Assembly (NCBI RefSeq): GCF_001975825.1
Contig: NZ_MTKN01000033.1
Location: 1 to 64,000, forward strand
Origin: [Flexibacter] sp. ATCC 35208
Lineage (GTDB): Bacteria > Bacteroidota > Bacteroidia > Chitinophagales > Chitinophagaceae
Length of the DNA stretch: 64,000 bases
Direction of reading: 5' to 3'
Numbering within the stretch: position 1 is the stretch's first letter; every line of letters starts with the position of its first letter. Positions 16,313 through 47,029 of this stretch are shown here, one piece after another. Both the position numbers and the translations under genes were made by a program. The notes under the pieces are model-generated. The model had not been told where the DNA came from and searched no databases. It saw only the letters and a program-made list of their open reading frames with translations.

Positions 16313-19300
16313 GTGAAGAACCTACCTATTGTCAGGCTACTGATATGTGCCTGTCTGTTATTAACTGCATCTGTGTATCCCTATGTATCCAAAGCCCAGG
16401 GAGACCAGACTGCGATCACTGTAAAACTAGGCACTAGCCAAACTACAGGTGCCTGGCTGCATTTACCGGATGATTACAACAGTACATCGACCAGTTATCC
16501 TCTTATAATTTTCCTGCATGGCGTAGGAGAGGGGGGAACTGATGTCAACGCTGTATTAGCGCATGGTGTACCAAAGATGATTGCAAACGGTGCAAAGATG
16601 CAGTATACAGTCAATGGAAAGTTGTTTAAATTTATCGTGGTATCTCCGCAAATCACCAATGGATGGGCAAGTGAGACCATGGTGCAAAGTGTACTGAATG
16701 ATATTAAATCAAAGTACAGAGTAGATGCATCCCGTATTTACCTGACCGGGTTAAGTGCCGGTGGTTATGGTGTATTAAATTACATCGCGTCTGGAACAAC
16801 CTATTCAGATAACCTGGCTGCTATCGTACCCGTGTCTTCAGCAGCAATTGATGCAAATAAATTTGCAGGACTATGTAATGTCGCCAGCAGCAAACTTGCT
16901 GTATGGATGCTATGTGGCACCAGCGACAGCTTTATTGGCAACCAACGTGATTACATCGCTGATATGAAGGCGTGTAGTCCATCTATCACTCCTATTGCTA
17001 CCGAATACAGCGGTGGTACACACAGCGATAATGTTTGGGACAAAGCATATGATCCCAACCACACTTACCAGAATCCTAACATTTACGAATGGATGTTGCA
17101 GTACAGCCGCAACACCGCATCTTCTACCATATCCCCTCCTGTAGCCGCCTTAGCATCTTCCAGCCTGACCATAACCTTACCAACCAATAGTACTACTTTA
17201 GATGGTTCCACTTCTACCGGTACCATCACTACATATGCATGGACGCAAACCTCAGGTCCCTCTACAGCGACACTGAGCAGCACCAGCACTGCAAAGATTA
17301 CTGCCAGCAACCTCGTTGCCGGCACTTATGTGTTTAAACTAACTGTATCAAATTCTGCAGGAAGTAGTTCACAAACTGTAACAGTAGTGGTGAATCCAGC
17401 CACTCCCGTAGCAGCTGTAGCAGCATCCAGCATTACGCTGACACTGCCTACGAATTCTACTACTTTAGACGGTTCTTCTTCTACCGGTACCATCACCAGT
17501 TATACATGGGCACAAACTTCGGGTCCTTCTACTGCTACACTGAGCAGTACCAGCACTGCAAAGATCACTGCCAGCAACCTGATAGCTGGCACCTATGTGT
17601 TTACACTGACCGTAAAGAACACTACAGGTAGTAGCAGCAAAACAGTGACGGTAGTAGTGAATGCCGCTACCACTGCCGCTCCGGTGGCAGCAGTGGCTTC
17701 TGCTTCCCTGAGCATTACATTACCTACCAACAGCACTGCTTTAGACGGTTCTTCTTCTACCGGTACCATCACCAGTTATACATGGGCACAAACTTCAGGT
17801 CCTTCTACTGCTACACTGAGCAGCACCAGCACTGCGAAGATCACTGCCAGCAACCTGATAGCTGGCACCTATGTGTTTACACTGACCGTGAAGAACACTA
17901 CAGGTAGCAGCAGCAAAACAGTCACCGTAACCGTAAATGCCGCTACCGGTGGCAAGACCGCCTGCGCCAGTTGCAAGTTCCTCATTACACCAGGTACGGA
18001 TGGCGGTGCATATATTAATGGTAACAACCTGGGTGTTCAACCAGGTGATACTGTATGTATCCAGTCAGGTAGTTACGACTACATCCAGTTCTTCAACATC
18101 ACCGGTACCACTGCCAAACCAATTGTATTCATCAACTGCGGTGGCCAGGTAAAAATAGGGAATGGTGGTAGCTATGGTTTTGTATTCAACAATGCCAAGT
18201 ATTTCAAAGTAACGGGTACAGGTAGTTCTGACACCTACGGTTTTAGTGTAGACGGTGTGAGCAAGAAACTGAACGTAGGTCTTGGTATCAGCAAGGGATG
18301 TACCGATTATGAAGCGGATCACTTTGAAATCACCGGCTCTGAAGTAGGGGTGATGGCAAAAGTAAACCCAGATTGCGATGTCAACAACCAGTATCCAACT
18401 TTCTCTATCAGAAATGTAAAACTGCATGATTTTTATATACACGATGTAACCGGTGAAGGTATGTATATTGGTAACACTGCGCCCAATGGAGAAACGTCCA
18501 CCTGCAACGGTGTATCTACCACCTTATTACCTCCACGCATTTATAACCTGAAAATTTACAACGTCATCACCGCCAATACCGGTTGGGATGGTATCCAGGT
18601 AGCTTCCGCACCTGAGAATGTAGAGATCTATAATAATAAGGTATCTAACTACGGTGTTGAAAATAAAGGTAGCCAGCAGGCGGGTATCATCCTTGGTGGT
18701 GAGTCCAACGGTAAGGTGTACAACAACACGGTGATCAAAGGTACCGGTAACGGTATTGAAATATTCGGTACGGGTCTGAGCTACGTTTACAACAACATTC
18801 TCAGCGATTGTGGTATAGATGGTACCAGCACAGGTCAGGATGCGATCTTCATCGACGACCGCCCTACCAAACAGAACTACACACCACTGCAGGTGTATGT
18901 GATGAACAACACCATCGTCAACTCAGGCAGAGATGCGATCCGTATGCAGAATACAAATGGTACCGATGGTACCGGCAACCTGTTTGTCAACAACCTTGCG
19001 GTAAAACCTGGTTCTCTGGCTTCGAGAGGAGCACGCGCATACCTGACTATTCAATCCGGTATATCATACACATCTGCAAATGGACTGAACTATCCGGATG
19101 CTGCGACTGTGAAGTTTGTAGATGCGGCTAATAAGAATTTCCACCTGGCAGCGGGTTCTCCTGCCATCGATCAGGGGAAGGATCTAAGCGCTTATTTCAA
19201 AATTGATATAGATGGCAACGCCCGCCCACAAGGCAGCGCATACGATGTAGGTGCCGATGAATATGCATCCGGTACTGCAGCAAACGTAGCGCCTACTGCC

Positions 19301-21298
19301 AGTGCAGGTGCTGACCAGGCCATTACTTTGCCCGTTACAACTGTTACACTTAATGGTACCGGATCTACTGATAGTGACGGTACCATTAAAACTTACAAAT
19401 GGGTTCAGACTTCCGGTCCGGTAACTGCCACTTTCAGCAGTGCGGCCATTGCCTCGCCTGTATTGACAAAACTCACTGCTGCAGGTACCTATGTATTTAC
19501 ACTGACTGTGACGGATGATGATGGCGCTACCGCTTCGGATGCTGTCACCATTACAGTGAATGCTGCGAATGTAGCACCTACTGCCAACGCCGGTACAGAT
19601 CAGACCATCACCCTGCCTACGACCACTGTTACCCTGAATGGTACAGGTTCCAAAGACACTGATGGTTCTATCAAAACTTACAAATGGGTACAGCCCTCAG
19701 GACCTGTCACTGCTACAATCAGCAATACAGCTATTGCGTCGCCGGTGATCACTAACCTGAAAACTGCGGGTACTTATGTATTCACCCTGACTGTTACTGA
19801 TGATGATGGTGCGACAGCTACTGACAATGTAACCATTACGGTAAAGGCTGCGAATGTTGCACCCACTGCCAATGCAGGTGCTGATCAGACCATTCAATTG
19901 CCTATTGCAACTGTAACGCTGAATGGTACTGGCTCTAAAGATAGCGATGGTACGATCAGTACTTATAAATGGGTACAGACATCTGGTCCGGCTACGGCCA
20001 CTATCAGCAGTGCAACCATTGCTTCTCCTGTGATTACTAACCTGTCTACTGCAGGCACCTATGTATTCACACTAACGGTGACAGATAATGGCGGCGCGAC
20101 TGCTACTGACCAGGTAACCATTACTGTAACTGCCGCTGCCGTGAATAAAGCGCCTACAGCCAATGCCGGTGCTGACCAGACCATTACTCTGCCTACTGCT
20201 ACTGTAACATTGAATGGTACAGGTTCTACTGACAGCGATGGTACAATCAATGCATACAAATGGGTACAGGCTTCCGGCCCTGTGACGGCGACACTGAGCA
20301 GCGCTACTATTGCTTCTCCGGTGGTAACAAAACTGACTACAGCAGGTAGCTATGTGTTCACATTGACGGTTACTGATGATGATGGCGCCACTGCTACTGA
20401 CAATGTAACCATTACGGTAAAGGCAGCGACTGTTTCTACACCTGCTGCTAATAAAGCACCTGTAGCGAATGCGGGTAGCGATATCACCATCACCATGCCT
20501 AGGAACAACACCACCGTAGATGGTTCGGGTTCTACTGACAGTGATGGCACAATCGTATCTTACAAATGGACACAGGTATCAGGACCGGCTACGGCATCTG
20601 TACCGTCTTCTACTGCTGCGAAGACAGATATCAATCAGCTCTCTTATGTGGGTACTTATGTATTCAGACTCACAGTGACTGATGATGATGGGGCAACTGC
20701 TACCGATGATATCAATGTAATTGTGAAAGCTGCCAGCAACAATAGCCTTGTGGCCAATGCGGGCGCAGATCAGACCATCACCCTGCCAACGGTGAATACC
20801 GTGACACTGACGGGTGCCGGATCTACTACTACAAATTATATCTCTTCTTATAAATGGGAATTGGTGAGTGGAACTGCTGGTTCGGCGACCATTCTGAATC
20901 CTGCTTCTGAAACACCGGTAATTACATTCTCACAGGCAGGCACTTATGTTTTTCGTCTTACCGTGACAGACACATATGGCGCTACCTCCACCGACGAAGT
21001 ATCGGTGTATGTGAATGGCAAGACTGCGGCTGTGGATGACAGCGAAGTCACGATACAGGTATATCCTAATCCTGCCAGTACCTCTCTCAACCTGAAGCTG
21101 GTGGTGAAAGAGGCGGCCAATCTTATTGTAAGAATATTTAACAGCAACGGGTATATTAAGGGTACTTATTATATGGGTACCACGAATACCGTGATGAAAA
21201 CCTTTGATGTAAGTGGTTTAGCAAACGGGCTGTATATTCTTGAAATAACGGATGGTAATTCGATGAAACTAACCAGTAAGTTTATAAAAGTTAATTGA
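16313..21298 (+). CDS. Giant secreted T9SS protein: esterase, PKD-like repeats, beta-helix, PKD-like repeats
   Basis: 1661 residues. Signal peptide (1-28, ending SKAQG). Alpha/beta-hydrolase of the PHB-depolymerase/feruloyl-esterase type at ~30-265: LIIFLHGVGEGG near 63, nucleophile in LTGLSAGGYG (~S148), catalytic His in GGTHSDNVWDKAYD (~H237). Three PKD-like repeats at ~270-545, a right-handed beta-helix (CASCKFLITPG..., AGIILGGESNGKVYNN) at ~545-985, six more PKD-like repeats (NxAPTANAGADQTITLP type) at ~985-1560, and a T9SS type A sorting domain (VYPNPASTSLNL ... KFIKVN) at the end. The start is GTG: an in-frame TAA lies three codons upstream and the signal peptide begins directly after. 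Expected on the cell surface or released. The esterase resembles those at 21337 and 30387. Substrate unknown; an acylated polysaccharide is inferred. Confidence 0.9.
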   Translation: MKNLPIVRLLICACLLLTASVYPYVSKAQGDQTAITVKLGTSQTTGAWLHLPDDYNSTSTSYPLIIFLHGVGEGGTDVNAVLAHGVPKMIANGAKMQYTVNGKLFKFIVVSPQITNGWASETMVQSVLNDIKSKYRVDASRIYLTGLSAGGYGVLNYIASGTTYSDNLAAIVPVSSAAIDANKFAGLCNVASSKLAVWMLCGTSDSFIGNQRDYIADMKACSPSITPIATEYSGGTHSDNVWDKAYDPNHTYQNPNIYEWMLQYSRNTASSTISPPVAALASSSLTITLPTNSTTLDGSTSTGTITTYAWTQTSGPSTATLSSTSTAKITASNLVAGTYVFKLTVSNSAGSSSQTVTVVVNPATPVAAVAASSITLTLPTNSTTLDGSSSTGTITSYTWAQTSGPSTATLSSTSTAKITASNLIAGTYVFTLTVKNTTGSSSKTVTVVVNAATTAAPVAAVASASLSITLPTNSTALDGSSSTGTITSYTWAQTSGPSTATLSSTSTAKITASNLIAGTYVFTLTVKNTTGSSSKTVTVTVNAATGGKTACASCKFLITPGTDGGAYINGNNLGVQPGDTVCIQSGSYDYIQFFNITGTTAKPIVFINCGGQVKIGNGGSYGFVFNNAKYFKVTGTGSSDTYGFSVDGVSKKLNVGLGISKGCTDYEADHFEITGSEVGVMAKVNPDCDVNNQYPTFSIRNVKLHDFYIHDVTGEGMYIGNTAPNGETSTCNGVSTTLLPPRIYNLKIYNVITANTGWDGIQVASAPENVEIYNNKVSNYGVENKGSQQAGIILGGESNGKVYNNTVIKGTGNGIEIFGTGLSYVYNNILSDCGIDGTSTGQDAIFIDDRPTKQNYTPLQVYVMNNTIVNSGRDAIRMQNTNGTDGTGNLFVNNLAVKPGSLASRGARAYLTIQSGISYTSANGLNYPDAATVKFVDAANKNFHLAAGSPAIDQGKDLSAYFKIDIDGNARPQGSAYDVGADEYASGTAANVAPTASAGADQAITLPVTTVTLNGTGSTDSDGTIKTYKWVQTSGPVTATFSSAAIASPVLTKLTAAGTYVFTLTVTDDDGATASDAVTITVNAANVAPTANAGTDQTITLPTTTVTLNGTGSKDTDGSIKTYKWVQPSGPVTATISNTAIASPVITNLKTAGTYVFTLTVTDDDGATATDNVTITVKAANVAPTANAGADQTIQLPIATVTLNGTGSKDSDGTISTYKWVQTSGPATATISSATIASPVITNLSTAGTYVFTLTVTDNGGATATDQVTITVTAAAVNKAPTANAGADQTITLPTATVTLNGTGSTDSDGTINAYKWVQASGPVTATLSSATIASPVVTKLTTAGSYVFTLTVTDDDGATATDNVTITVKAATVSTPAANKAPVANAGSDITITMPRNNTTVDGSGSTDSDGTIVSYKWTQVSGPATASVPSSTAAKTDINQLSYVGTYVFRLTVTDDDGATATDDINVIVKAASNNSLVANAGADQTITLPTVNTVTLTGAGSTTTNYISSYKWELVSGTAGSATILNPASETPVITFSQAGTYVFRLTVTDTYGATSTDEVSVYVNGKTAAVDDSEVTIQVYPNPASTSLNLKLVVKEAANLIVRIFNSNGYIKGTYYMGTTNTVMKTFDVSGLANGLYILEITDGNSMKLTSKFIKVN
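17471..17940 (+). repeat. Nearly identical tandem coding repeats (276-bp period)
   Basis: The second and third PKD-like units of the 1661-residue protein share long almost identical DNA (17471-17660 versus 17747-17936) with only a few third-base changes. This suggests recent duplication or gene conversion, and likely variation in copy number between strains. Confidence 0.8.
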
Positions 21299-21303
21299 AT
21301 GAG

Positions 21304-21335: not shown

Positions 21336-21336
21336 A

Positions 21337-22125
21337 TCACTTTTTGTATTGCAACATCCACTCATAAATACTCATACCATACTGTTTATTCTTAGGATCA
21401 TACAGTGCTTTCCATGTATGATGTGCAAATCCATCCAATATTGTTAGCTTAGCCAGATTTGGCTTATGAGAGTTCGTACTATCCTTATACCGTTCACACT
21501 CCTCCAGAAAATGCGGTTCATCTGTCCCTGCCATGTACCAGGTGGCGATATTCGCATCTGCAACCAGCTTAAAACGTTTCATATTCGCTACATCAATCGT
21601 CGCTACCGACATGGGTACTGCTGCTGCAATACGATTAGACAGCTTCGCATTATCCGTCATTGCCATCACCGTCGCCCAGCCACCTGCACTGTAACCAGTG
21701 AGGTATATCCTGGAACGATCTACTCTGTAATGTTTCTCTATATCGTCCAGCAGGCGTTTGATTTCTGCTGGTTTCAGTCCCCAACTAGGCGCTTGTGGCG
21801 CAACAACAATGAATTTATACAGTTTACCATCAACGGGATTTACAGCTTCTATTTTCTCCCCATTATTGATCCAGTAAGGAATGCCTTCAAGATATAACTT
21901 AGACAGGTCATGTCCTGATTTGCTTTTTCCATGCAGAAAAACGATCAGCGGGTATTCTTTTTTGGACTTATTATAATCGTCCGGGAGCTGCAGCAATGCC
22001 CCTATTTTATTCCAGGGATTTACCGGAATAAGTATACTGTCCATTCGGTGCTGCGCATATGTGTTCACTGTTTGTATGCACATTACGAACAAAAGTGCAA
22101 CAATTGTAGTGGTACTTTTTACCAT
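21337..22125 (-). CDS. Secreted alpha/beta-hydrolase (esterase), stand-alone
   Basis: 262 residues. Signal peptide MVKSTTTIVALLFVMCIQTVNTYA, then a single hydrolase domain of the same type as the N-termini of the two giant proteins: LIVFLHGKSKSG near 63, nucleophile in LTGYSAGGWA (~S147), and catalytic His followed by W and A in FAHHTWKALYD (~H237), ending IYEWMLQYKK as in the 1661-aa protein (NIYEWMLQYS). It has no sorting domain and so is probably periplasmic. It starts 33 bp after the TolC-like gene and is the last gene of the exopolysaccharide operon. Likely a carbohydrate esterase or depolymerase acting on polymer or trapped intermediates; not proven. Confidence 0.8.
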   Translation of the reverse strand: MVKSTTTIVALLFVMCIQTVNTYAQHRMDSILIPVNPWNKIGALLQLPDDYNKSKKEYPLIVFLHGKSKSGHDLSKLYLEGIPYWINNGEKIEAVNPVDGKLYKFIVVAPQAPSWGLKPAEIKRLLDDIEKHYRVDRSRIYLTGYSAGGWATVMAMTDNAKLSNRIAAAVPMSVATIDVANMKRFKLVADANIATWYMAGTDEPHFLEECERYKDSTNSHKPNLAKLTILDGFAHHTWKALYDPKNKQYGMSIYEWMLQYKK

Positions 22126-22158
22126 GACAAAAAATTATTTTAAATGAATGAGCCCGGG

Positions 22159-22869
22159 TTACTGGGCAATAACAGTCTCCAGCTTCACACCGATCAGCTC
22201 TTCGATTTCCAGCTTTACATTAGCCAGGTCTCTTTCCAGATTCAGCTTCTTGGTTCTGTCATTGTTATACTGCTGTGATGCGGAGGTATATGATTCGTAA
22301 GAAATGCTACCTGCAGCCAGTTTGCTTTCTGCCTGTGTGAATGCTGCAAAATCATCTTCAGTGATTTCGTTCTGCATTGCCAGCAATTGTTTGTTCATCA
22401 GGTAGTCGTGGTATTTGGACAATACCATTGCTTTGATCTGTCTTTTGGCTGATTCTTCCTGCGCAGAAGCAATGTTTACATTCGACCTGGCTACTTTTAC
22501 ATCAGCGCCTTTACCAACCAGTGAACCCAATGGTACATTCACACCCACGTTCCAGAGCGGATAGTACACCTGTGCACGATAGTCGCCGGAGTTTTTGAAG
22601 CGCCCCAGTGTTACATCATTGAAGTTTGCACTGAGGGTTACATAATTCAGCCAGTTACCCTTTGCTTTGTTGAGCTCATATTCTGCTCTTTGTTTTTCGT
22701 ATACTCTAACTTTTAGATCTGGATTCTCGTACGCGAGTTGTACCAGTTTTTCCTGGATGTCTTCTGCTGATACATCTTTGGAAGGGGTAGAAGGCAATGT
22801 CTTGTTTTGTGCGCTCACTGTGAGAGCTGTAGAGAGGAAAATTAAAAGGACGCTGATGTGCTGTTTCAT
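22159..22869 (-). CDS. Half-size TolC-like outer-membrane factor
   Basis: 236 residues with a signal peptide (MKQHISVLLIFLSTALTVSAQ). The rest reads like one of the two structural repeats of TolC/OEP proteins: helix PDLKVRVYEKQRAEYELNKAKGNWLNYVTLSANF, strand segments around YYPLWNVGVNVPLG, then a long heptad-rich helix pair from ~125 to 225 (AQEESAKRQIKAMVLSKYHDYL; EIEELIGVKLE). Full TolC proteins have about 400-490 residues, so a trimer from this protein would supply only half the helices; a hexamer would be one solution. The start overlaps the polymerase stop (ATGA). Its place in a Wzx/Wzy-type operon without a visible Wza suggests a part in polymer export, which is inferred. Confidence 0.7.
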   Translation of the reverse strand: MKQHISVLLIFLSTALTVSAQNKTLPSTPSKDVSAEDIQEKLVQLAYENPDLKVRVYEKQRAEYELNKAKGNWLNYVTLSANFNDVTLGRFKNSGDYRAQVYYPLWNVGVNVPLGSLVGKGADVKVARSNVNIASAQEESAKRQIKAMVLSKYHDYLMNKQLLAMQNEITEDDFAAFTQAESKLAAGSISYESYTSASQQYNNDRTKKLNLERDLANVKLEIEELIGVKLETVIAQ

Positions 22870-24359
22870 GTTATTATAGTTTTTGCTTGGTCTGAATTTT
22901 TATGAGAAAGTGTTTCGAAATCTTTCATTTTTACGATGATGGCCATGGCGCTATAAAAGAAGAATGCGCCGGGTATCTGCCCGATGGCCACCTGTGCATA
23001 GTGCGCGATGATGTAGGCATATAACCCTGTCACAATGGCTACATAGAGCGCCCTGACCTCCCGGGTCCTGGCCTGATAATATCCTTTTACGCCTACGAGG
23101 AGGGTGACAAAGAATAGCGTCATTGTGATTATTAGCCCGATCCAGCCCGTTTCGAGTGCTGTTCGGAGGTAACCGCTGTCCGGTGGAAAACCTGCCAGCG
23201 GATGGCCTGGATTGTACTGTATACCTAATACCCCGGAAGTGGCTACCCCCCCCCCGATAGGATGCCGCAGTATATAAGGTTGTATGTGATGCCTGTTTTC
23301 ATCCCTCACGTTCATCGATTCATCATCTTTGAGGTGAAAGGACGTACGTATACGGTTCACTGTATTATTGCCGGAAAATGGTCCGAACATGAGCACCACG
23401 ATAAACATAAAGAACCCTGCCATGAACAGCAATGTTCTACGGTTTGTGATGGTCATCAGAAAATAGATAGCCAGACCACCGGGTATCATAAAGTAAGCCG
23501 TACGCGTACCGGAAAAGGCCATGCCCAGGCACATAATGATAATGCCCACTATGAGCCAGTTACGTTGCTTTGGCTTTTGTGTGGTCATGGCCAGTACAAT
23601 GGCAAATACCACGCTGCACGCCATCAATATACCATAAGCAGTAGGGTCGGAGAGGAAGGAGAACTTCCTGATCTCACCACCCTGGAAGTACAGTCTGTAA
23701 CGCACCGGATCACTTACTACCCAGTGCTCTTCAAAGCCCAGTAACCCAAACCATTCCTGGAAACAGCCATAGGCACCACTCAGTACGGACAGGAATAACC
23801 AGAGTTTGAGATAATCTTTTACATCTTTGACACTGTTGAAAGTGAACAGGCCGATAAAATAGATCATCACGAAGTTGACAAACTTGCGCACGGTAAATAT
23901 CCACCCCGATACTGAATACATAGAGGGGTTGAACAATTCGATGAGCAGAAATCCCAGGTACATGATGTACATGTAAGAAACAGGATTCTTCATATACTGC
24001 CAGATGCGCTGCTTATGAATCGTCTTTTTATAATAAGCGCCGATGAAGGTCACCGCTGTCAGTACATCGACAGCCACACCCATGGGGAGGGTATCGTCAG
24101 ACATGCGCTTAATGTAAAACATAAAGAAACCCACTACCGTAGTAATCAGAAACCCCAGATGGGTATTGAACAGACAGATCAGTGTGACCATGCCTCCTAT
24201 TAAGCCTGCTGCGATGATCATACCTATGCGGTAATCTACGTAGCCCACCAGCAGGCTGATGCCGATGGCTACTACTAACACAGCGGCAAAGGCCAGGGGC
24301 TTGTGCAGTAAACCGGACCCTCGCAGAGGTGCTGCTCCTGTGATGAGTGATGGTCGCAT
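22866..24359 (-). CDS. Wzy-like polysaccharide polymerase / O-antigen ligase family
   Basis: 497 residues with about twelve hydrophobic segments from residue 18 to 480. The family Wzy_C region lies around 330-430, with a large periplasmic loop (RTSFHLKDDESMNVRDENR ... HPIGGGVATSGVLG ... PPDSGYLRTALETGWIG). This layout is that of the O-antigen ligase/polymerase family, which joins lipid-linked repeat units at the periplasmic face. In this operon polymerase is likelier than ligase, because a flippase and a chain-length co-polymerase lie next to it. Coupled by an ATGA overlap to the TolC-like gene. Confidence 0.85.
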   Translation of the reverse strand: MRPSLITGAAPLRGSGLLHKPLAFAAVLVVAIGISLLVGYVDYRIGMIIAAGLIGGMVTLICLFNTHLGFLITTVVGFFMFYIKRMSDDTLPMGVAVDVLTAVTFIGAYYKKTIHKQRIWQYMKNPVSYMYIMYLGFLLIELFNPSMYSVSGWIFTVRKFVNFVMIYFIGLFTFNSVKDVKDYLKLWLFLSVLSGAYGCFQEWFGLLGFEEHWVVSDPVRYRLYFQGGEIRKFSFLSDPTAYGILMACSVVFAIVLAMTTQKPKQRNWLIVGIIIMCLGMAFSGTRTAYFMIPGGLAIYFLMTITNRRTLLFMAGFFMFIVVLMFGPFSGNNTVNRIRTSFHLKDDESMNVRDENRHHIQPYILRHPIGGGVATSGVLGIQYNPGHPLAGFPPDSGYLRTALETGWIGLIITMTLFFVTLLVGVKGYYQARTREVRALYVAIVTGLYAYIIAHYAQVAIGQIPGAFFFYSAMAIIVKMKDFETLSHKNSDQAKTIIT

Positions 24360-24362
24360 ATC

Positions 24363-24467
24363 TTAGAAGAATAAAACTTTTAATGCCAGAAATAACAACG
24401 TGAAGCCAATGAATAGTGTCACGGTGATCTCTAATAACCGATCGTCTGAAAACCTGTTATCTTTCAT
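24363..24467 (-). CDS. 34-residue single-pass membrane miniprotein
   Basis: A short frame not listed by standard length cut-offs. It starts with an ATG that overlaps the stop of the glycosyltransferase gene (ATGA at 24464-24467) and ends three bases before the polymerase ATG. The protein has a charged head (MKDNRFSDDRLLE) followed by about 20 hydrophobic residues (ITVTLFIGFTLLFLALKVLFF), as expected for one transmembrane helix with the N-terminus in the cytoplasm. The exact fit between two coupled genes is the main evidence that it is real. No family is recognised. It may be a small subunit of the polymerase or flippase, or serve translational coupling. Confidence 0.6.
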   Translation of the reverse strand: MKDNRFSDDRLLEITVTLFIGFTLLFLALKVLFF

Positions 24468-37127: not shown

Positions 37128-37174
37128 ATGGATAAGTGTTTCAGTTGTAAACCGATTAATTAACTTACCCAGCA

Positions 37175-37189
37175 AGTTTTGGCAAAACT
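37175..37189. promoter_or_regulatory. Inverted repeat upstream of the 2246-aa protein
   Basis: AGTTTTG-G-CAAAACT, perfect 7-bp arms, 48 bp before the ATG. No matching -7 box is obvious next to it. The rest of the gap (37190-37419) is AT-rich and shows no gene. Confidence 0.4.
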
Positions 37190-39766: not shown

Positions 39767-40339
39767 TGGCTTTATCGGGGTAATGCTTTCGTTATAATGG
39801 TGCCAAATTAAAGAAGAAAAATTATTGTGTGTCAATATAATGATACATCAACCGCAATTTTAGCATCGTTTACTTTCACTTTCGCATCATTCACGAGGAA
39901 TTCTTTATCATTTACCAATTTCAAAATATTAAAAAATAATTATTACTATACTTTTGGGCCAGATTTCGATAAAAACCATCAGATTGTTGACTTTCAAGTG
40001 CGAAAAAAATATTGTTCAAGATTTTATTTGCACTATTCAGGAATAATAAATATTTTTACCCTGATTATAGCAATCTGCTAAATGTAACCATAGCCATCTC
40101 CTCTGAAATTCACTTTAACCAATTTGTCCTGAAATGAACTACCACCGCAGTCTTTGCGCGTATGCCTTTCTATATCGCATATGTATTAAACTGCAAGTGG
40201 TGTTAATTTAGTGATAATTCTACCTTATCCTCCTGGAAGATCAAAGAGATTCCATTTGCCCATTCTGCAACAGCAAACGTTGTAGCGTGAACGCATTTGG
40301 TTTACAGAGCAATCTTTTATGTTCTAAACCGGAGTTAAA
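39767..40339. other. Divergent intergenic region of the exopolysaccharide locus
   Basis: About 570 bp between the two oppositely directed parts of the locus, AT-rich (especially 39900-40080). It must hold promoters for the GT2/acyltransferase pair (weak box TTAATTTG, minus, 39804-39811) and for the receiver-led plus operon; no convincing -33/-7 pair is seen for the latter. A 31-codon run on the minus strand (near 39833-39925) reads protein-like but has no ATG. No RNA gene recognised. Confidence 0.5.
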
Positions 40340-40726
40340 ATGAAAAAGAAGATTTTAATAGTAGATGACAGTGCCCCAATGCGATTTTTGTTAGAAGCGA
40401 TGTTAGGCAACAAGTACAAAGTATATGCTGCGACAGACGGACTGACTGCAACAATGTGGTTATCCAGCGGCAATATTCCGGATCTGATCATCACGGATGT
40501 GCAAATGCCTAATATAGACGGCTGGCAGCTCGCCAAGAACCTTGCAGGCAATGCTCTATATAGCGATATACCAGTTATCGTTCTTACAGGTATGGACCTG
40601 AAGGACAGTATCCCCCTATATCCCAATGTAGCTAGAGTGATTAACAAACCATTTGATCCAATTAAGTTGCTCGAGATTGTAGATAACCAGTTAAGCACAA
40701 GACAGTCAGTGAGTATAGCGGGATGA
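40340..40726 (+). CDS. Stand-alone CheY-like response-regulator receiver
   Basis: 128 residues, one receiver domain with all functional residues: acidic pair D9-D10 in LIVDDSAPM, phosphoacceptor D53 in IITDVQMPNIDGW, T83 in VIVLTGM and K103 in INKPFDP. No output domain. It is the first gene of the plus-strand exopolysaccharide operon and is followed after 62 bp by a sugar transferase whose N-terminus is a degenerate receiver. No histidine kinase is encoded nearby, so phosphorylation must come from elsewhere. Likely controls polymer synthesis by protein contact, not DNA binding. Confidence 0.92.
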   Translation: MKKKILIVDDSAPMRFLLEAMLGNKYKVYAATDGLTATMWLSSGNIPDLIITDVQMPNIDGWQLAKNLAGNALYSDIPVIVLTGMDLKDSIPLYPNVARVINKPFDPIKLLEIVDNQLSTRQSVSIAG

Positions 40727-40788
40727 TCTTTTTTGTTGCACCCCAGTGACCATTGTTACACAAGATTTTTTAAGTAAACCGAACGCAC

Positions 40789-41928
40789 ATGATATCTAAT
40801 CTACCATTGAGCTATCCTGATGCCAGGATAAAGACAGGTACCAAAGTACTCACCATGGCCTCGAGCCACGTGAACAGGTACACACTCTGCATCGGGAATG
40901 ATGAATTCTTCGATGGGGTCACAGGCAAAACCGAGGAGTATGTTTTTACTGCAAAAGAGTTGTCTTTGTCAGTGAATGTACTAAAGGAACAACTGCATTA
41001 CAACATAGTGCCTACATTTATTATATGTAACGTACATAACAATCCCCATTTCAATTTGCGTAAGCTCAGGGATTTTATTCGCACTGAATCCCGGCTTGCC
41101 AAGGTACCTGTGTTTATTTATACTGAAGCATTATCAGCCTCGCTGAAACAAGAACTCCGCACCATAGGAGGTATTGATGATATCCTTACCCCCGCCGTTA
41201 CCCCTGCGATATTTGAAGAAAAGCTGCGTACTGCGCAGCAGATCCGTCACATGGCACAGACTATTGAAAAAGATGACAGATCTGTTTCAATAAAGCCTGG
41301 CTATTACCTTAACTATTCCATCAAGCGTGGCCTGGATATCTTATTTGCCGGCACACTGCTTTTATTGTTATCCCCGGTATTTCTTGTCCTGGCTATTCTA
41401 ATCAAACTGGGGTCCAAAGGGCCTGTTTTCTATGTGTCTCACCGCGCTGGCAAACGCTACCAGATCTTCAAATTTTACAAGTTCCGCACCATGGTAGCGG
41501 ATGCTGACAAGCAGGTTGCCCAGATGAAGCACCTGAACCAGTACGATACAAACGGTACCGGTCCTGTGTTTTTCAAAATTAGTAATGACCCCCGTGTAAC
41601 CCGTCTGGGTACCTTCCTTCGCAACACCAGTTTAGATGAAATTCCCCAGCTTCTGAATGTATTGCTGGGACATATGTCACTCGTAGGCAATCGGCCCCTT
41701 CCATTGTACGAAGCTGCTACCCTCACGACAGACGACTACGCCGGCCGCTTTCTGGCACCTGCCGGCATCACTGGTCTGTGGCAGATTAAGAAGAGAGGGA
41801 ATAAAGATATGAGCGTGAGCGAGCGCATCAACCTGGATAAAAGTTATGCTGAAAAACATTCTGTGCTGTACGATATGTGGATTCTCGCTAATACTCCGAA
41901 TGCCCTGAGGCAGAAGGATAATGTATAA
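40789..41928 (+). CDS. Polyprenyl-phosphate sugar-1-phosphate transferase with N-terminal pseudo-receiver
   Basis: 379 residues. C-terminal half (~175-379) is a bacterial sugar transferase: membrane segment DILFAGTLLLLLSPVFLVLAI, FKFYKFRTMVADAD near 228, the DE pair in TSLDEIPQLLNVL (D283-E284), MSLVGNRPL near 297 and GITGLWQI near 326. Such enzymes start repeat-unit synthesis by loading the first sugar phosphate on undecaprenyl phosphate. The N-terminal half is unusual: residues ~72-150 follow a receiver fold (PTFIICNVHNNP, VPVFIYTEA, DILTPAVTP) with the phosphoacceptor replaced by N81 and the Lys by T134, while T112 is kept. The start ATG at 40789 is the only one before the domain. Confidence 0.88.
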   Translation: MISNLPLSYPDARIKTGTKVLTMASSHVNRYTLCIGNDEFFDGVTGKTEEYVFTAKELSLSVNVLKEQLHYNIVPTFIICNVHNNPHFNLRKLRDFIRTESRLAKVPVFIYTEALSASLKQELRTIGGIDDILTPAVTPAIFEEKLRTAQQIRHMAQTIEKDDRSVSIKPGYYLNYSIKRGLDILFAGTLLLLLSPVFLVLAILIKLGSKGPVFYVSHRAGKRYQIFKFYKFRTMVADADKQVAQMKHLNQYDTNGTGPVFFKISNDPRVTRLGTFLRNTSLDEIPQLLNVLLGHMSLVGNRPLPLYEAATLTTDDYAGRFLAPAGITGLWQIKKRGNKDMSVSERINLDKSYAEKHSVLYDMWILANTPNALRQKDNV

Positions 41929-41952
41929 AATTAATAATTACCGAATACGATT

Positions 41953-42864
41953 ATGAGTTTGCAAGAACAAACACCACTGGTGTCCATTATTGCCCTTAAT
42001 TTCAACCAGACAACTGTTACCTGCGAATTTCTGGAGTCTACAAAAAAGCTAACCTACCGCAATTTTGAGACGATCATCGTAGATAATGGGTCCAGTGTTG
42101 ATCCTACTGCACAAATTGAAGCAGGCAACTATCCGAATCTCCGCCTCATTCTAAGCCCTGTAAACCTGGGTTTCACCGGTGGCAACAACCTCGGTATTGA
42201 GCAGGCGAAAGGTGATTTTTTATTCATTGTAAATAATGATACAGAAGTCACTCCCGATCTGCTGGAGCACCTGTTGCAGCCATTTTATGTAGACGGAACC
42301 ATTGGCGTGGTATGTCCTAAAATTCGTTTTTACTCTCACCCCAATGTGATCCAATACGCCGGCTTTAACAAGATGAACCTCCTAACAGGTCGTACATGGG
42401 CTGTAGGCAGCAAGGAGGAAGATAAAGGTCAGCACGATGTATCAGGCCCTACCTGGTGTGCACATGGCGCTGCCATGATGGTAAAGCGTGAAGTGATTGA
42501 CAATGTAGGCCGCTTTGCTGACAAATTCTTTATCTACTATGAAGAAAGTGACTGGTCTGCCAGAATTCTGCGCGCCGGGTACAAGATCTATTATAATGCT
42601 AACGGGCTGATCTTTCATAAGGAGTCCATCACCATGGGTAAGGAAAGCGCGATTAAAGCGTATTACCATACACGTAACCGCATTCTCTACATGCGCAGGA
42701 ATACGAACAAGATGCAGCTGGCAGCGTTCCTCTGTTTCTTTAGTTTCCTTACGTTCCCCAAGGCAGTGGTCACTTACACAATGAAAGGACAGTTTAAGCA
42801 TTTACGGTCATTTGTAAAAGGCACGTTCTGGAACCTCACTACATCAAGTTATTCACCTGTATAA
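41953..42864 (+). CDS. Glycosyltransferase family 2 (rhamnosyltransferase-like)
   Basis: 303 residues. GT-A fold: VSIIALNFNQTTVTCEFLES near 10, FETIIVDNGSSVD near 38, LGFTGGNNLGIEQAKGDFLFIVNNDTEV near 75-102 with the DxD-like NND, GAAMMVKREVIDNVGRFADKFFIYYEESDW near 172-200. This is the WbbL/RfbF-like branch that often transfers rhamnose from dTDP-rhamnose, but no rhamnose genes are in the window, so the donor is unknown. A C-terminal hydrophobic stretch (LAAFLCFFSFLTF) may attach it to the membrane. Follows the initiating transferase after 24 bp. Confidence 0.88.
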   Translation: MSLQEQTPLVSIIALNFNQTTVTCEFLESTKKLTYRNFETIIVDNGSSVDPTAQIEAGNYPNLRLILSPVNLGFTGGNNLGIEQAKGDFLFIVNNDTEVTPDLLEHLLQPFYVDGTIGVVCPKIRFYSHPNVIQYAGFNKMNLLTGRTWAVGSKEEDKGQHDVSGPTWCAHGAAMMVKREVIDNVGRFADKFFIYYEESDWSARILRAGYKIYYNANGLIFHKESITMGKESAIKAYYHTRNRILYMRRNTNKMQLAAFLCFFSFLTFPKAVVTYTMKGQFKHLRSFVKGTFWNLTTSSYSPV

Positions 42865-42876
42865 AAAAACTCAATT

Positions 42877-43905
42877 ATGTCTAAAATAACATCACTTGTT
42901 ACCGGCGGTGCCGGCTTTATCGGTTCACATGTCGTAAAACATTGCCTGGCAATGGGACATGAAGTAGTTGTACTGGATGACCTCAGCGGAGGCTTCGAAG
43001 ATCATATCCCTGCAGGTGCAATATTCGTTCAGGGTTCTGTTTCCGACGATCAGCTGGTGACCAGTCTGTTTGAAGAATACCGTTTTCAATATGTATACCA
43101 CCTGGCGGCATATGCAGCTGAAGGGCTGAGCCACTTTATCCGCCGTTTCAATTATAACAATAACCTCATTGGTAGCATTAACCTGATCAATGAGTCTATC
43201 AAGCATAAAGTAAAATGTTTCGTATTTACCTCTTCCATCGCTGTATATGGTGCAGGTCAGCTGCCTATGCGTGAGGAAATGGTGCCAATGCCGGAAGATC
43301 CATATGGCGTATCTAAGTTCGCAGTAGAACTGGATCTGAAAGCAGCCCACGAAATGTTTGGTCTGAACTACGTGGTATTCCGTCCGCACAATGTATATGG
43401 TGAAAACCAGAACATTGGCGATAAATACCGTAACGTAATCGGCATCTTCATGAACCAGATCATGCAGGGCCAGCAACTCACCATCTTCGGTGATGGTGAA
43501 CAGACCAGGGCTTTCAGCTTTATTGACGATGTGGCTATTCCGATTGCGAACAGCGTAAACATTCCTGCTGCTTACAATCAGGTTTTCAATATTGGTGCAG
43601 ACAAACCTTATACGGTGAATGAACTGGCGAAGGTAGTAGGCGCCTGTTTCGGTGTAACCCCGGATATCAAATACCTGGCAGCACGTAACGAGGTTATGCA
43701 CGCTTACTCTGACCACACCAAAGCACACAGCGTATTTGGCGAAGGCAGTGGTGTTTCCTTACAGGAAGGCATTGAAAGAATGGCAGCATGGGCCAAAGAA
43801 GTAGGTGCGCGTAAGAGCAAGGAATTCGAAAACATTGAGATTTACGAAAAACTGCCACAGGGCTGGGAAAGGAAACAACCCCAGGCCGAAGGCGTTCCGG
43901 CATAA
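42877..43905 (+). CDS. NAD-dependent epimerase/dehydratase (UDP-glucose 4-epimerase-like)
   Basis: 342 residues, extended short-chain dehydrogenase. NAD-binding VTGGAGFIGSHVVKHC at the N-terminus, VVLDDLSGG near 30, catalytic TSSIAVYG near 122 and the YxxxK pair in DPYGVSKFA near 146-152, FRPHNVYGENQNIGDKYRNVIGIF near 165-190 for substrate binding. It most resembles nucleotide-sugar 4-epimerases and should supply a donor sugar for the locus. Ends in TAATG, overlapping the next glycosyltransferase start. Confidence 0.88.
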   Translation: MSKITSLVTGGAGFIGSHVVKHCLAMGHEVVVLDDLSGGFEDHIPAGAIFVQGSVSDDQLVTSLFEEYRFQYVYHLAAYAAEGLSHFIRRFNYNNNLIGSINLINESIKHKVKCFVFTSSIAVYGAGQLPMREEMVPMPEDPYGVSKFAVELDLKAAHEMFGLNYVVFRPHNVYGENQNIGDKYRNVIGIFMNQIMQGQQLTIFGDGEQTRAFSFIDDVAIPIANSVNIPAAYNQVFNIGADKPYTVNELAKVVGACFGVTPDIKYLAARNEVMHAYSDHTKAHSVFGEGSGVSLQEGIERMAAWAKEVGARKSKEFENIEIYEKLPQGWERKQPQAEGVPA

Positions 43906-45038
43906 TGAACAACACACCTAAAATAAAGGTATTGCAGGCCATCCGCCAGGGACTGATAGGTGGTGGGGAATCCCACGTACTCAGCCTGGTGGATGCCATG
44001 GACAAAGAACGCTTTGAGCCGGTGGTGCTGTCTTTTACAGACGGACCTATGATCACGCGTTTGCAGGAAATGGGTATACGCCATTATGTAATTCCTTCCC
44101 TGAAAGCATTTGACCCTTCCTGCTGGAAACGGGTCAAAACGCTTATACAGGAAGAACAGATTGACATCGTTCATGCACACGGTTCACGTGCTGCCAGCAA
44201 TCTGTATATTCCCACCCGCATGAGTGGCCGACCTTTATTGTATACGATCCATGGCTGGTCATTTCACGATGATCAGCCTTTTCTGCAAAAGCAGATGAGG
44301 GTATGGTCAGAAAGGTTGCTGACCAGTGGAGCAAAGGCGAACATCTCTGTCTCTGCGTCTAACAGGGATACAGGTGTGAAGCATTTTTCAGGCTTCAGGT
44401 CTACGGTGATCAATAATGGGATCGATCTGACCAGATTCAATCCTTCCGCATCACAAAACAACATTCGCCAGGAATTAGGTATTCCAGCCCAAAATACGGT
44501 GATTGGGTACATTGCACGCATTACAATTCAAAAAGATCCTTTAACACTTGTTTACGCCTTTAAAAAGGTATTGGAGCAACATCGCGACATTACCCTGCTG
44601 GTGGTAGGGGAAGGGGATATGAAAGAAGAAATGGTTTCACTGGCAGCCGCACAAGGCATTGCCAGCCATATTGTATATCAGCCATTCCGCGGCGACGTGC
44701 CGGCATTGTTACAGGCAATTGATATTTATTGTTTACCCTCCCTCTGGGAAGGGCTGCCAATCGGGCTGCTGGAAGCCATGGCCATGCGTAAGGCCGTGAT
44801 CGTGACAGCAGTAGATGGCTCCAAAGAAATTGTAGCCGACAGGCAAAACGGGCTGGTTGTTCCCGTCCGTGATCCTGCGGCGCTGGCTACGGCCATCAGC
44901 ACCTTACATACAGATGTACCCTTACGTACATCTGTACAGCACGCAGCAGCTGTTACTGTGAATCAGCATTATTGTGCAAAAGGCATGACCCGTCAGGTAG
45001 AAGACCTGTACAGGGATGTGCTTGATCATCAAAATTAA
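43905..45038 (+). CDS. Glycosyltransferase family 4
   Basis: 377 residues, GT-B fold. N-domain opening KVLQAIRQGLIGGGESHVLSLVDAM, IVHAHGSRAASNLY near 85; C-domain VIGYIARITIQKDPLTLVYAFKKVL near 200, LLVVGEGDMKEEM near 235 and the E-x7-E motif in SLWEGLPIGLLEAMAM near 283-292. A retaining transferase acting in the cytoplasm on lipid-linked sugars. The start shares one base with the epimerase stop. Donor unknown. Confidence 0.92.
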   Translation: MNNTPKIKVLQAIRQGLIGGGESHVLSLVDAMDKERFEPVVLSFTDGPMITRLQEMGIRHYVIPSLKAFDPSCWKRVKTLIQEEQIDIVHAHGSRAASNLYIPTRMSGRPLLYTIHGWSFHDDQPFLQKQMRVWSERLLTSGAKANISVSASNRDTGVKHFSGFRSTVINNGIDLTRFNPSASQNNIRQELGIPAQNTVIGYIARITIQKDPLTLVYAFKKVLEQHRDITLLVVGEGDMKEEMVSLAAAQGIASHIVYQPFRGDVPALLQAIDIYCLPSLWEGLPIGLLEAMAMRKAVIVTAVDGSKEIVADRQNGLVVPVRDPAALATAISTLHTDVPLRTSVQHAAAVTVNQHYCAKGMTRQVEDLYRDVLDHQN

Positions 45039-45051
45039 CCGGATACGAATC

Positions 45052-45819
45052 ATGACTACTACTATTACATATGAATATGATAGAATCGCTGACAGGAAGC
45101 GGCTTGACTTTATCAGTGACTCATTGAAAGGGAAGGTAAAGGCGGATGCCAGGGTGCTGGATGTAGGCTGTGGCAACGGTGTGATCAGCCGTCACCTGGG
45201 TAAACTGGGTTTCAATGTACTGGGGATTGATGTGAGCGAGCAAACTATTGCCCGTGCACGTGCTCTGAATACATTGCCCAATGTGTGGTTTGATGTAATC
45301 AGTGCAGAGAAGCTCGTGGCACAGGGCGATACATTTGATGCGATCATCTGTAGCGAGGTACTGGAACACCTGCAGGATCCTTCTTCTTTATTGAAAGTTT
45401 TGTACCAGTCGTTGAAACAGGACGGTGTGCTCATCGTGACTGTGCCAAATGGCAGCGGCCCCCGCGAATTGTTTGTGACCCGCCCCGTATTAGCAATGCG
45501 TGAAAAAAACAGCTGGCCATGGAGAATGGTGGTCGGTGTCAAGAAAGCGCTGGGCTACACAGGAACTACTGTGCAGTCGGCAGCGGATAATCTGGATCAT
45601 GTGCAATTTTTCAACAAAACGGATCTGGAAAATTTGTCTACACAAAACCACTTCCGCATCGTACGTTTTGGCAAAGCGAATTTTATTGAGGATGTATTCC
45701 CGTTCTCTTTTGTAGCTAAAAAAGTACGTGCATTACAGTGGCTGGATTGTAAGATCGCCGATGCATTGCCCTACCGCTTTACAGGTGGGTTCTTTTCTGT
45801 TTGGGAAAAAGCAAATTAA
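45052..45819 (+). CDS. Class I SAM-dependent methyltransferase
   Basis: 255 residues from the ATG at 45052; the longer frame to 45016 would overlap the preceding gene. Motif I RVLDVGCGNGVISRHLG near 33-48, post-I acidic LGIDVSEQTI near 56 and motif II FDAIICSEVLEHLQDP near 95-110 define a UbiG-like Rossmann methyltransferase. In an exopolysaccharide operon it probably O-methylates a sugar or caps a chain; target inferred. Ends one base before the next gene's ATG. Confidence 0.88.
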   Translation: MTTTITYEYDRIADRKRLDFISDSLKGKVKADARVLDVGCGNGVISRHLGKLGFNVLGIDVSEQTIARARALNTLPNVWFDVISAEKLVAQGDTFDAIICSEVLEHLQDPSSLLKVLYQSLKQDGVLIVTVPNGSGPRELFVTRPVLAMREKNSWPWRMVVGVKKALGYTGTTVQSAADNLDHVQFFNKTDLENLSTQNHFRIVRFGKANFIEDVFPFSFVAKKVRALQWLDCKIADALPYRFTGGFFSVWEKAN

Positions 45820-45820
45820 T

Positions 45821-47029
45821 ATGTGGACCATCCTTTTTTACTGCTTTGCAGCGATACAGCTTTTGCTGGCAGCGTACCTGCTACAGCCAACTATTCTTTT
45901 GCTTGTTTATGGCATAAAGAAATTTTTTGGCTCCCTCTTTGCAAGCAGGAAGGTGAATACTGAAGCACCGGCACAAGATTATTCTTTTGCAGTCATCATC
46001 ACGGCCCATAAGAATCTACAACTGGTTCCACCCCTTGTAGATTCTGTACTCAGGCAAACCTACCGCCACTTCAAAGTATATGTTGTAGCGGATGGCTGTG
46101 AACATGCGAACATTGGATACAACGACGATCCACAGGTAAAAGTGTTACTGCCGGAAGTACCCTTAAATGCAAAAATCCGTTCCATCGACTATGCGATCAA
46201 TCATTTTGATGCTACACACGATGTAATGATCATACTGGATGCAGACAACCTGTTGCATCCTGATTACCTCGACGTATTGAACAGGTATTTCAATAAAGGT
46301 TACCGTGCGGTACAAACCAATATGCTGGCGAAGAACAACGATAGCGTATATGCACAACTGGATGCTGCAGGTAACTATTTCAGCAACTTCATTGACAGGC
46401 GTATGCGCATGGAAATGGGATTGTCTGCCAATATATGGGGACTGGGTATTGCTATCGAAACAGCCCTGTACAAGCAGGTAATCTATCGCAACTTCCTGGG
46501 TGGATTTGATAAGAAGATCCAGGCCGATATTGTGAAACTGATTCCACAGCTGGCCTATGCAGAAGAAGCGAAGGTATACGATGAGAAGATTGATAGCGGC
46601 GATGCACTGGAAACACAGCGTACCAGGTGGATCAATGCCTACTTTAAATATTTAAAATACGGTTGGGATGTGTTGCTGACGGGATTGAAACGTGGCAGTT
46701 TTAACCTCGTATTCTTTGGTTTTAATTTACTGCGTCCGCCATTGTTTCTGCAGGTGGTGGGAGCGGCCTTTTTTGCAGTAGTGAACTATTGGATCTCACC
46801 GGTGTGGATGCTGGGCTGGCTAGTGGCGATGGTGCTGTTCCCTTTGTCTTTCCTGATCATCGTAGCGGTGATGAGTACAGACAGGAAAACCGTAGCCGCG
46901 CTGTTTTACCTGCCAGTATTTTTTATCAGACAGGTGAAAGCATTCCTGCACATTGGCAGAGCAAATAAAGCCTTTTTACAAACTCAAAATAATAAGGTTA
47001 TCTATATTCAGGATCTACTGAATCAATAG
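45821..47029 (+). CDS. Membrane-bound glycosyltransferase family 2
   Basis: 402 residues from the ATG at 45821 (MWTILFYCFAAIQLLLAAYLL), one base after the methyltransferase stop; an earlier ATG at 45728 lies inside that gene. N-terminal helix, GT-A domain with SFAVIITAHKNLQLVPPLVDSVLRQTY near 50 and the DxD site VMIILDADNLLHPDYL near 135, then RTRWINAYFKYLKYGW near 267, close to the Q(R)xxRW motif of processive enzymes, and at least two further helices. Last gene of the plus operon, followed by a terminator. Confidence 0.88.
   Translation: MWTILFYCFAAIQLLLAAYLLQPTILLLVYGIKKFFGSLFASRKVNTEAPAQDYSFAVIITAHKNLQLVPPLVDSVLRQTYRHFKVYVVADGCEHANIGYNDDPQVKVLLPEVPLNAKIRSIDYAINHFDATHDVMIILDADNLLHPDYLDVLNRYFNKGYRAVQTNMLAKNNDSVYAQLDAAGNYFSNFIDRRMRMEMGLSANIWGLGIAIETALYKQVIYRNFLGGFDKKIQADIVKLIPQLAYAEEAKVYDEKIDSGDALETQRTRWINAYFKYLKYGWDVLLTGLKRGSFNLVFFGFNLLRPPLFLQVVGAAFFAVVNYWISPVWMLGWLVAMVLFPLSFLIIVAVMSTDRKTVAALFYLPVFFIRQVKAFLHIGRANKAFLQTQNNKVIYIQDLLNQ

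Follow-up and report, generated by a model that had tools for sequence, protein, structure and literature searches.

Giant esterases with predicted T9SS sorting domains are linked to a Wzx/Wzy-type exopolysaccharide locus in [Flexibacter] sp. ATCC 35208 and related Bacteroidota

Results and discussion

The first 64,000 nucleotides of contig NZ_MTKN01000033.1 of [Flexibacter] sp. ATCC 35208 were analysed; this whole stretch is called the window below. It lies on a contig (C229 in our data set) of a Chitinophaga-like genome of 8.6 Mb and contains a Wzx/Wzy-type exopolysaccharide (EPS) locus together with three alpha/beta-hydrolases, which we designate GIANT1, EST2 and GIANT3. The two giants end in predicted sorting domains of the type IX secretion system (T9SS). 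Comparison with related genomes strongly supports the assignment of these putatively secreted esterases to the EPS locus. Our preferred reading, to which we assign a probability of about 0.6, is that the locus encodes, side by side, the means to make and export one polymer and to remodel it outside the cell, where the T9SS-exported esterases would bind and de-esterify it. The nearest titled locus is that of Chitinophaga silvisoli, with 92% identity in the GIANT3 esterase domain (records of the genome itself were possibly excluded). The culturable species C. arvensicola and C. pinensis also have loci of this kind.

Association of the giants with EPS genes

An initial annotation, made from the window alone, had proposed comparing the positions of Wzx/Wzy loci with those of proteins that have an N-terminal hydrolase of this type and a T9SS tail. 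The association proved to be far above chance. An orthologous Wzc (> 350 bits) is present in 30 of 117 genomes of the family, and 29 of these 30 have GIANT3 on the same contig, between 31 bp and 12.9 kb away; the median distance is 118 bp, and in 23 of the 29 it does not exceed 417 bp. By chance, such nearness would be expected in about 1% of cases, assuming one such cluster per several-Mb genome. In the remaining genome (G104), GIANT3 is found on another contig. Seen from the giants, GIANT3 matches were obtained in 41 of the 117 genomes at E 1e-20; merging, and removal of the rows named below, gave 46 places in 32 genomes; 30 of these places, in 30 of the 32 genomes, are within 20 kb of a Wzc or Wzy homologue. 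Only the best candidates per genome were scored (three in the family search, six in the phylum search described below), and the counts are thus lower bounds. The linkage count used 80 GIANT3 rows. It left aside matches confined to FN3/PA14 repeats, hydrolases that stand alone, small additional fragments of a gene that had been counted once, the two pieces of G104 at contig edges, Wzc matches below 350 bits, and the Wzy of loci without GIANT3 (except for one in genome G077).

A second sample, drawn from titled records and overlapping the first, consisted of 77 GIANT3 loci from genera including Chitinophaga, Parafilimonas, Thermoflavifilum, Terrimonas, Foetidibacter, Flavitalea and Ferruginibacter. 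EPS homologues number three or more at 56 of them and one or two at 9, and are absent from 12. These gene counts are again lower bounds, as the flanks reached no further than 10 kb ahead of the domain start and about 3-4 kb past GIANT3, with several contigs being short; some genomes contribute more than one locus, so that the loci are not independent. The Wzc linkage and the 77-locus sample together rule out a chance adjacency of giants and EPS genes.

Beyond the family, a sample of 395 genomes of the phylum was searched with the hydrolase profile at E 1e-30. Among the best six candidates per genome, giants of more than 2000 amino acids (aa) were found outside the family only in three genomes, all from a single second family of the same class; all remaining matches outside the family were in open frames of about 240-310 aa. 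Two of the three second-family giants lie among genes for a sugar transferase, glycosyltransferases, an outer-membrane efflux (OEP) protein and Wzy, and the stretches from the third genome hold an OEP protein, an acyltransferase and a family 2 glycosyltransferase.

Acyltransferases distinguish the GIANT3 loci

The EPS loci with GIANT3 differ from those without it in the presence of membrane acyltransferases, which were counted on the fetched stretches only. A protein of the Acyl_transf_3 family is encoded within 10 kb of Wzc (or of Wzy where Wzc is missing) in 28 of 30 GIANT3 loci, compared with 2 of 24 loci without GIANT3 (Fisher test, 8.6e-11, a p-value that ignores ancestry). None of the 24 contains the hydrolase. 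The 30 loci include G104 despite its GIANT3 pieces being on a separate contig, but neither G014 (flanks not fetched) nor G081 (no Wzc or Wzy in the stretch). The comparison set comprises 24 of the 25 loci with Wzy or a long Wzc but no GIANT3, G046 being omitted because of its tiny contig. For loci retrieved as two separate flanks, only the one with more labelled genes entered the count. In the second family, two of three loci have an acyltransferase in their stretches.

The 24 loci without GIANT3 (L223-L232 and L237-L250) form a sister class of EPS loci within the family. OEP, Wzy and the group 1 glycosyltransferase GT4a are each present in 23 of 24, giants are absent, and 22 of 24 lack an acyltransferase.

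Gene content of the locus

The EPS genes of the window are arranged in two runs. The minus-strand run (39835 to 21337) reads GT2a, AT3b, GIANT3, Wzc, AT3a, Wzx, GT4a, Wzy, OEP and EST2, and the plus-strand run (40340 to 47029) reads receiver, initiating sugar transferase, GT2b, epimerase, GT4b, methyltransferase and GT2c. GIANT1 is on the plus strand and convergent with EST2. The features are as follows.

14791..15804 (+): polysaccharide-deacetylase-family protein just upstream of GIANT1; PgaB-like, weak match; membership in the system uncertain
16313..21298 (+): GIANT1, 1661 aa; esterase, PKD/K319L-like repeats, right-handed beta-helix, T9SS sorting domain
16313..17131 (+): GIANT1, signal-like N-terminus and esterase domain
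17885..19267 (+): GIANT1, beta-helix region; also found as separate proteins in EPS loci of relatives
21059..21286 (+): GIANT1, T9SS sorting domain
21337..22125 (-): EST2, 262 aa; stand-alone esterase with signal-like N-terminus; final gene of the minus-strand run
22159..22869 (-): half-size OEP protein, 236 aa; candidate polymer exit channel
22866..24359 (-): polymerase of the Wzy/O-antigen-ligase family
24464..25669 (-): glycosyltransferase group 1 (GT4a), by Pfam
25654..27003 (-): Wzx-type flippase, by Pfam
27007..28080 (-): membrane acyltransferase AT3a, Pfam Acyl_transf_3
28080..30266 (-): Wzz/Wzc-type co-polymerase with kinase-like ATPase domain
30387..37175 (-): GIANT3, 2262 aa; esterase, Ig/FN3 repeats, two PA14 and three malectin-like modules, T9SS sorting domain
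30411..30641 (-): GIANT3, T9SS sorting domain, marginal score
30756..31265 (-): GIANT3, malectin-like module copy 3; no Pfam family
31560..32066 (-): GIANT3, malectin-like module copy 2; no Pfam family
32646..33173 (-): GIANT3, malectin-like module copy 1, used for structure modelling; no Pfam or NCBIfam family
34815..35210 (-): GIANT3, top-scoring of the two PA14 stretches
36246..37118 (-): GIANT3, esterase domain; Ser-Asp-His invariant among relatives
37420..38586 (-): membrane acyltransferase AT3b, Pfam Acyl_transf_3
38579..39835 (-): glycosyltransferase family 2 (GT2a); opening gene of the minus-strand run
40340..40726 (+): stand-alone response-regulator receiver, kept beside the sugar transferase
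40789..41928 (+): initiating sugar transferase (Bac_transf)
41953..47029 (+): GT2b, NAD-dependent epimerase, GT4b, methyltransferase and GT2c, by Pfam

Pfam confirmed the Wzx, Wzy and Wzz/Wzc proteins and the two membrane acyltransferases that the initial annotation had named. The initiating polyprenyl-phosphate sugar transferase matches Bac_transf (E 8.1e-57) and the flippase Polysacc_synt_3 (E 2.4e-20). Wzy matches Wzy_C (O-antigen ligase; E 1.8e-14), a match that cannot separate polymerase from ligase. Wzc matches Wzz (E 6e-08) and AAA_31 (E 2.3e-06), with eps_fam under its cut-off, and is kinase-like by family. Within the home genome, Wzy and Wzc each match only the contig of the window (E 1e-10). 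The esterases had been described as flanking and ending the operon. EST2 is the last gene of the minus-strand run; GIANT3 does not flank the run but lies inside it, directly before Wzc.

The receiver gene recurs in relatives: of 85 sugar-transferase open reading frames (ORFs) in the fetched stretches, 79 are accompanied by a receiver that is encoded in the same orientation and no more than two ORFs away. This recurrence suggests that EPS initiation may be under phospho-signal control.

No SusC or SusD was seen among the Pfam-scanned genes of 14791-47029, although no search aimed at SusD was made. Two ORFs that by eye resemble TonB-dependent receptors start 6-10 kb outside this region. At 52970-59998, a sulfatase gene (55736-57175) is located between two such ORFs, and this stretch is probably a separate uptake locus. 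Structured RNAs and tRNAs were not found in the window at the thresholds of the tools. The Bacteroidota -33/-7 promoter pattern gave four matches in the window with 1.55 expected (3 of 100 shuffles had as many); this is too weak to use, including the match at 16190-16222 just before GIANT1.

The hydrolases: two clades with a conserved triad

All three ORFs are present in the window with the motifs that had been read from their translations, namely GLSAGG, GYSAGG and GLSAGG for the nucleophile and HSDNVWDKA, HHTWKAL and HGIWDNA around the histidine (in the order GIANT1, EST2, GIANT3). They are related beyond chance, with pairwise identities of 37% for GIANT1 and EST2 (264 columns, E 4e-55), 31% for GIANT3 and GIANT1 (139 columns, E 2e-15) and 27% for GIANT3 and EST2 (139 columns, E 8e-11). 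However, the idea of a single hydrolase type had to be replaced by two clades in a maximum-likelihood tree of 97 domains. In this tree the GIANT1/EST2 type forms a group of its own (35 rows, support 98/100), as does the GIANT3 type (46 rows, support 99/98), which is joined by the second-family giants (50 rows, support 100/99). Within the GIANT1 group, EST2 forms a cluster (100/99) with two further short ORFs from the same genus and is thus probably a shortened GIANT1-type esterase. The tree was built from 97 of 137 rows after GIANT3 domains had been thinned for redundancy and was rooted at the midpoint; its bootstrap had not fully settled, the GIANT1 domain of the window is incomplete owing to an ATG-only rule for ORFs, and the free-standing rows were drawn by the GIANT3 profile. 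When the home genome was searched with a profile of the three hydrolases, it returned these three, one clear extra match (an ORF of 263 aa, E 2.4e-24) and three marginal ones.

The alignment places Ser, Asp and His in all 79 hydrolase domains of ORFs that also bear the malectin-like module described below. A vestigial enzyme would not be expected to keep this triad, and degenerate esterases are thereby ruled out for GIANT3. In ORFs of 500-1700 aa without the module, a mixed class that includes cut-off GIANT3 genes, Ser is kept in 29 of 29, Asp in 27 of 29 and His in 29 of 29. The eight short ORFs show D in four cases, E in three and a gap in one at the acid position, and H in six and a gap in two at the His position; the departures may be explained by short or cut sequences and alignment slips.

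The model of the GIANT3 hydrolase domain (pLDDT 92.6) has as its nearest structure the Thermotoga esterase 3doh/3doi (for 3doh, Z 25.5, rmsd 1.9, 214 residues, 28% identity), followed by LC-Est1 (LC-Est1C; Z 22.6) and a Haliangium carboxylesterase (Z 22.5); a sequence profile gave the same top three. Acetylxylan and feruloyl esterases and Ag85 come further down at Z about 19 (1f0n 18.8; Corynebacterium glutamicum mycoloyltransferase 18.7). GIANT3 thus shares the fold of its hydrolase domain with 3doh/3doi, LC-Est1C and the acetylxylan and feruloyl esterases, but we know of no T9SS tail or EPS linkage for any of these enzymes. Pfam places GIANT1 in Abhydrolase_2 and EST2 in Peptidase_S9 and Esterase, all barely above the cut-offs, and the Pfam scan returned no hydrolase family for GIANT3. 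Models of polyhydroxybutyrate (PHB) depolymerases stayed far under their cut-off with the hydrolases of the window. Fold and aligned triad fit a CE1-like carbohydrate esterase.

Modules of the giant proteins

In addition to FN3, PA14, bacterial Ig and a weak Por_Secre_tail match in Pfam, GIANT3 contains a further module, about 165 aa long, in three copies. None of the three copies has a Pfam family, one sub-threshold PH-like match aside. In the fetched stretches, 263 occurrences of the module were counted, spread over 83 ORFs; 79 of the 83 contain the hydrolase, and 68 of these 79 have three or four copies. Copy 1 was modelled with AF2 (pLDDT 95.8). While Foldseek gave no match below E 0.001 (best E 1.5e-3), VIA-align matched it to the N-terminal part of YxiM (Z 12.8), to ANXUR2 and FERONIA (Z 11.8), to C-terminal parts of Bacteroides beta-glucuronidases (Z about 11) and to human malectin (Z 10.2). 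Judging from Z values of 10-13 for the modelled copy, the module has a malectin-like, that is, a carbohydrate-binding, fold, in common with malectin, ANXUR/FERONIA and YxiM. Unlike the known malectins, it belongs to no Pfam or NCBIfam family and is, in the stretches examined, found mostly inside these giants. It is a candidate for a new family of carbohydrate-binding modules.

GIANT1 combines PKD/K319L-like repeats with a right-handed beta-helix. Related beta-helices are fused to the hydrolase in seven ORFs, including that of the window, and stand alone in five ORFs of 405-564 aa in stretches taken around EPS loci; this dual occurrence indicates a shared task. The helix could not be assigned to a known lyase: the single sequence has no match in the PDB at E 0.1, and its profile gives weak matches to structures of an alpha-galactosidase (E 1.1e-5) and an alpha-1,3-glucanase (E 5.8e-4). 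One ORF of 1092 aa (locus L074), which contributes one of the 79 domains above, joins an esterase of the GIANT1 group to the malectin-like module, which is elsewhere characteristic of GIANT3, suggesting that the two giants have exchanged modules.

Predicted export of proteins and polymer

The two giants had been predicted to continue into surface modules and a T9SS sorting domain, and this was borne out clearly for GIANT1 (Por_Secre_tail 49.8 bits; TIGR04183 37.6 bits) and marginally for GIANT3. The GIANT3 tail scores 29.9 bits with Por_Secre_tail (PF18962; cut-off 27) in the genome search and 22.3 bits in a single-protein Pfam scan, and a TIGR04183 scan did not report it. Among ORFs of more than 2000 aa with hydrolase and malectin-like module, 66 of 68 end in a sorting domain according to a profile grown from the tails of both giants themselves, and the remaining two reach the end of their contig. 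The T9SS gene sprA is represented in the home genome by two matches (2850 and 2667 bits), and 49 of its 51 T9SS-tail matches are on contigs other than that of the window. From their sorting domains we infer that GIANT1 and GIANT3 are secreted via the T9SS, as type A cargo. EST2 has a signal-like N-terminus without a sorting domain and may be periplasmic.

A Wza-type exporter (Poly_export) was not found in the locus, all four matches in the genome being on other contigs. A phmmer search with these four proteins (E 1e-5) returned just two Wza-like ORFs, in two stretches, among all stretches examined. The half-size OEP protein, of the TolC family, is the sole candidate for an outer-membrane channel seen in the locus; its small size is usual in the fetched stretches (213-268 aa in 53 of 58 OEP ORFs). 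The OEP protein probably serves as the exit for the polymer.

Weighing of alternative explanations

Several observations speak against a dedicated role of the giants in EPS remodelling. Sixteen of the 46 GIANT3 places are away from Wzc or Wzy, some of them at contig ends and others being extra copies, and 12 of the 77 loci of the second sample have no EPS homologue; copies without EPS homologues in their flanks are found in Parafilimonas terrae, Chitinophaga tropicalis and strain DXS. Genome G028 has only a displaced full-length GIANT3, with a single acyltransferase match in its 20-kb flanks. As to the acyltransferases, locus L252 (on a 17.7-kb contig) has none, and the first locus of G055 was counted as lacking one since it is on the other flank only. 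Loci with and without GIANT3 mostly differ in Wzc too (> 350 versus < 250 bits), so that the acyltransferase association may rest on few evolutionary events. Finally, the score of the GIANT3 sorting domain is marginal and the hydrolase fold is promiscuous.

The giants might mainly tether or cross-link EPS as a matrix scaffold or adhesin, with the esterase domain being secondary. The bulk of each giant does consist of repeat modules (FN3, PA14, PKD, malectin-like), an EPS cluster encoding matrix proteins is known from Vibrio cholerae (PMC11637428), and the T9SS adhesins RemA and SprB reportedly bind exopolysaccharide through a lectin domain (PMC13211072). Catalytic residues that are invariant over 79 domains argue against a secondary esterase, and we consider this explanation unlikely. 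Alternatively, the giants could be foraging enzymes that attack esters of plant or microbial polysaccharides, their EPS neighbourhood being incidental. The acetylxylan and feruloyl esterases among the fold relatives would suit such a role, as would the extra GIANT3 copies away from EPS genes in some genomes and the habits of Chitinophaga, which are polymer degraders. The pairing with Wzc, seen for 29 of 30 orthologues, in several genera and again in a second family, is hard to reconcile with an incidental neighbourhood, and no uptake gene is present among the Pfam-scanned genes of 14791-47029; we regard foraging as slightly less likely still.

Ag85 and the mycoloyltransferase of C. glutamicum among the structural neighbours raise the question of whether the serine hydrolase moves an acyl group instead of releasing it, Ag85 proteins being mycolyltransferases. 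GIANT3 and GIANT1, brought to the cell surface by the T9SS, would then be EPS-dedicated transacylases that use acyl groups placed by the AT3 proteins, or the polymer end, to form a covalent EPS-protein ester and fix the polymer to a surface protein, for which their modules of glycan-binding folds would also be suited. If this were true, T9SS and EPS assembly would jointly build a covalent slime-protein coat. As the closest neighbours by structure and sequence are plain esterases (3doh) and Ag85 shares the general fold only, we regard transacylation as quite improbable. Still less probable, and in our estimate very much so, is that the polymer serves as an anchor glycan for T9SS cargo, comparable to the lipopolysaccharide A-LPS of Porphyromonas gingivalis. 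A WbaP sugar transferase also acts in the synthesis of A-LPS, which becomes attached to T9SS cargo (PMC7468200); moreover, PF04932, the family of the polymerase, is named O-antigen ligase. From what is known of the pathway, however, Wzc with an outer-membrane OEP protein fits the release of a free polymer, and an orthologous Wzc is limited to 30 of the 117 family genomes, whereas the T9SS is expected in most of them.

Comparison with known systems

The statement of the initial annotation that no described system pairs Wzx/Wzy synthesis with T9SS esterases has to be qualified. The pairing is not described in the open-access literature covered, including passages of PMC12419801 and PMC13211072, and subscription papers were mostly outside this scope; matrix proteins encoded with EPS genes, on the other hand, are known from Vibrio. 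The closest arrangement known to us is the VPS/rbm biofilm cluster of V. cholerae (RbmA, RbmB, RbmC), which encodes secreted matrix proteins that act together with a partly O-acetylated polymer, VPS, and, in RbmB, a secreted lyase for that polymer (PMC11637428). The likeness concerns the arrangement: here the proteins would exit by the T9SS, carry a serine esterase, and are mostly multi-module proteins of 900-2800 aa. Flavobacterium RemA and SprB are T9SS surface proteins with a similar reported affinity for exopolysaccharide, but neither an esterase nor a surrounding EPS synthesis locus is mentioned for them in the passage of PMC13211072 on which this comparison rests. The anchoring of T9SS cargo by A-LPS in P. 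gingivalis (PMC7468200) connects T9SS and polysaccharide in a different way.

Enzymes that remove acyl groups and are encoded with EPS genes include PgaB/IcaB, PelA and HfsH; they have other folds and act in the periplasm or at the cell wall. The window has a PgaB-like protein of the polysaccharide-deacetylase family at 14791 (weak match). No EPS-tailoring deacetylase known to us combines T9SS export with several binding modules.

Proposed function and implications

In the reading that we prefer, joint synthesis, export and remodelling of one polymer, the sugar transferase would start the repeat unit and the glycosyltransferases would extend it, as judged from family matches and knowledge of the pathway. 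Wzx, Wzy and Wzc would flip and polymerise it, with the half-size OEP protein as the probable exit, and AT3a and AT3b, going by their family, would O-acylate the polymer. GIANT3 and GIANT1, leaving via the T9SS as their sorting domains predict, may hold the polymer with their malectin-like, PA14 and beta-helix modules, while the serine esterase, with its triad in place, would remove acyl groups outside the cell. EST2 would act before export. By de-acylating the slime at the surface, the giants could alter its charge, its gelling or its adhesion. The esterases may, as the initial annotation proposed, trim or anchor an acylated polymer.

To our knowledge, no role is established for most T9SS cargo in free-living Bacteroidota. 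The present locus hints at the purpose of one set of giant T9SS proteins, a conserved class that accompanies one particular polymer pathway. The combination of enzyme, binding modules and acyltransferase predicts an extracellular cycle of acylation and de-acylation on EPS, and the sequence data suggest that soil bacteria of the Chitinophaga group may remodel their own slime at the cell surface.

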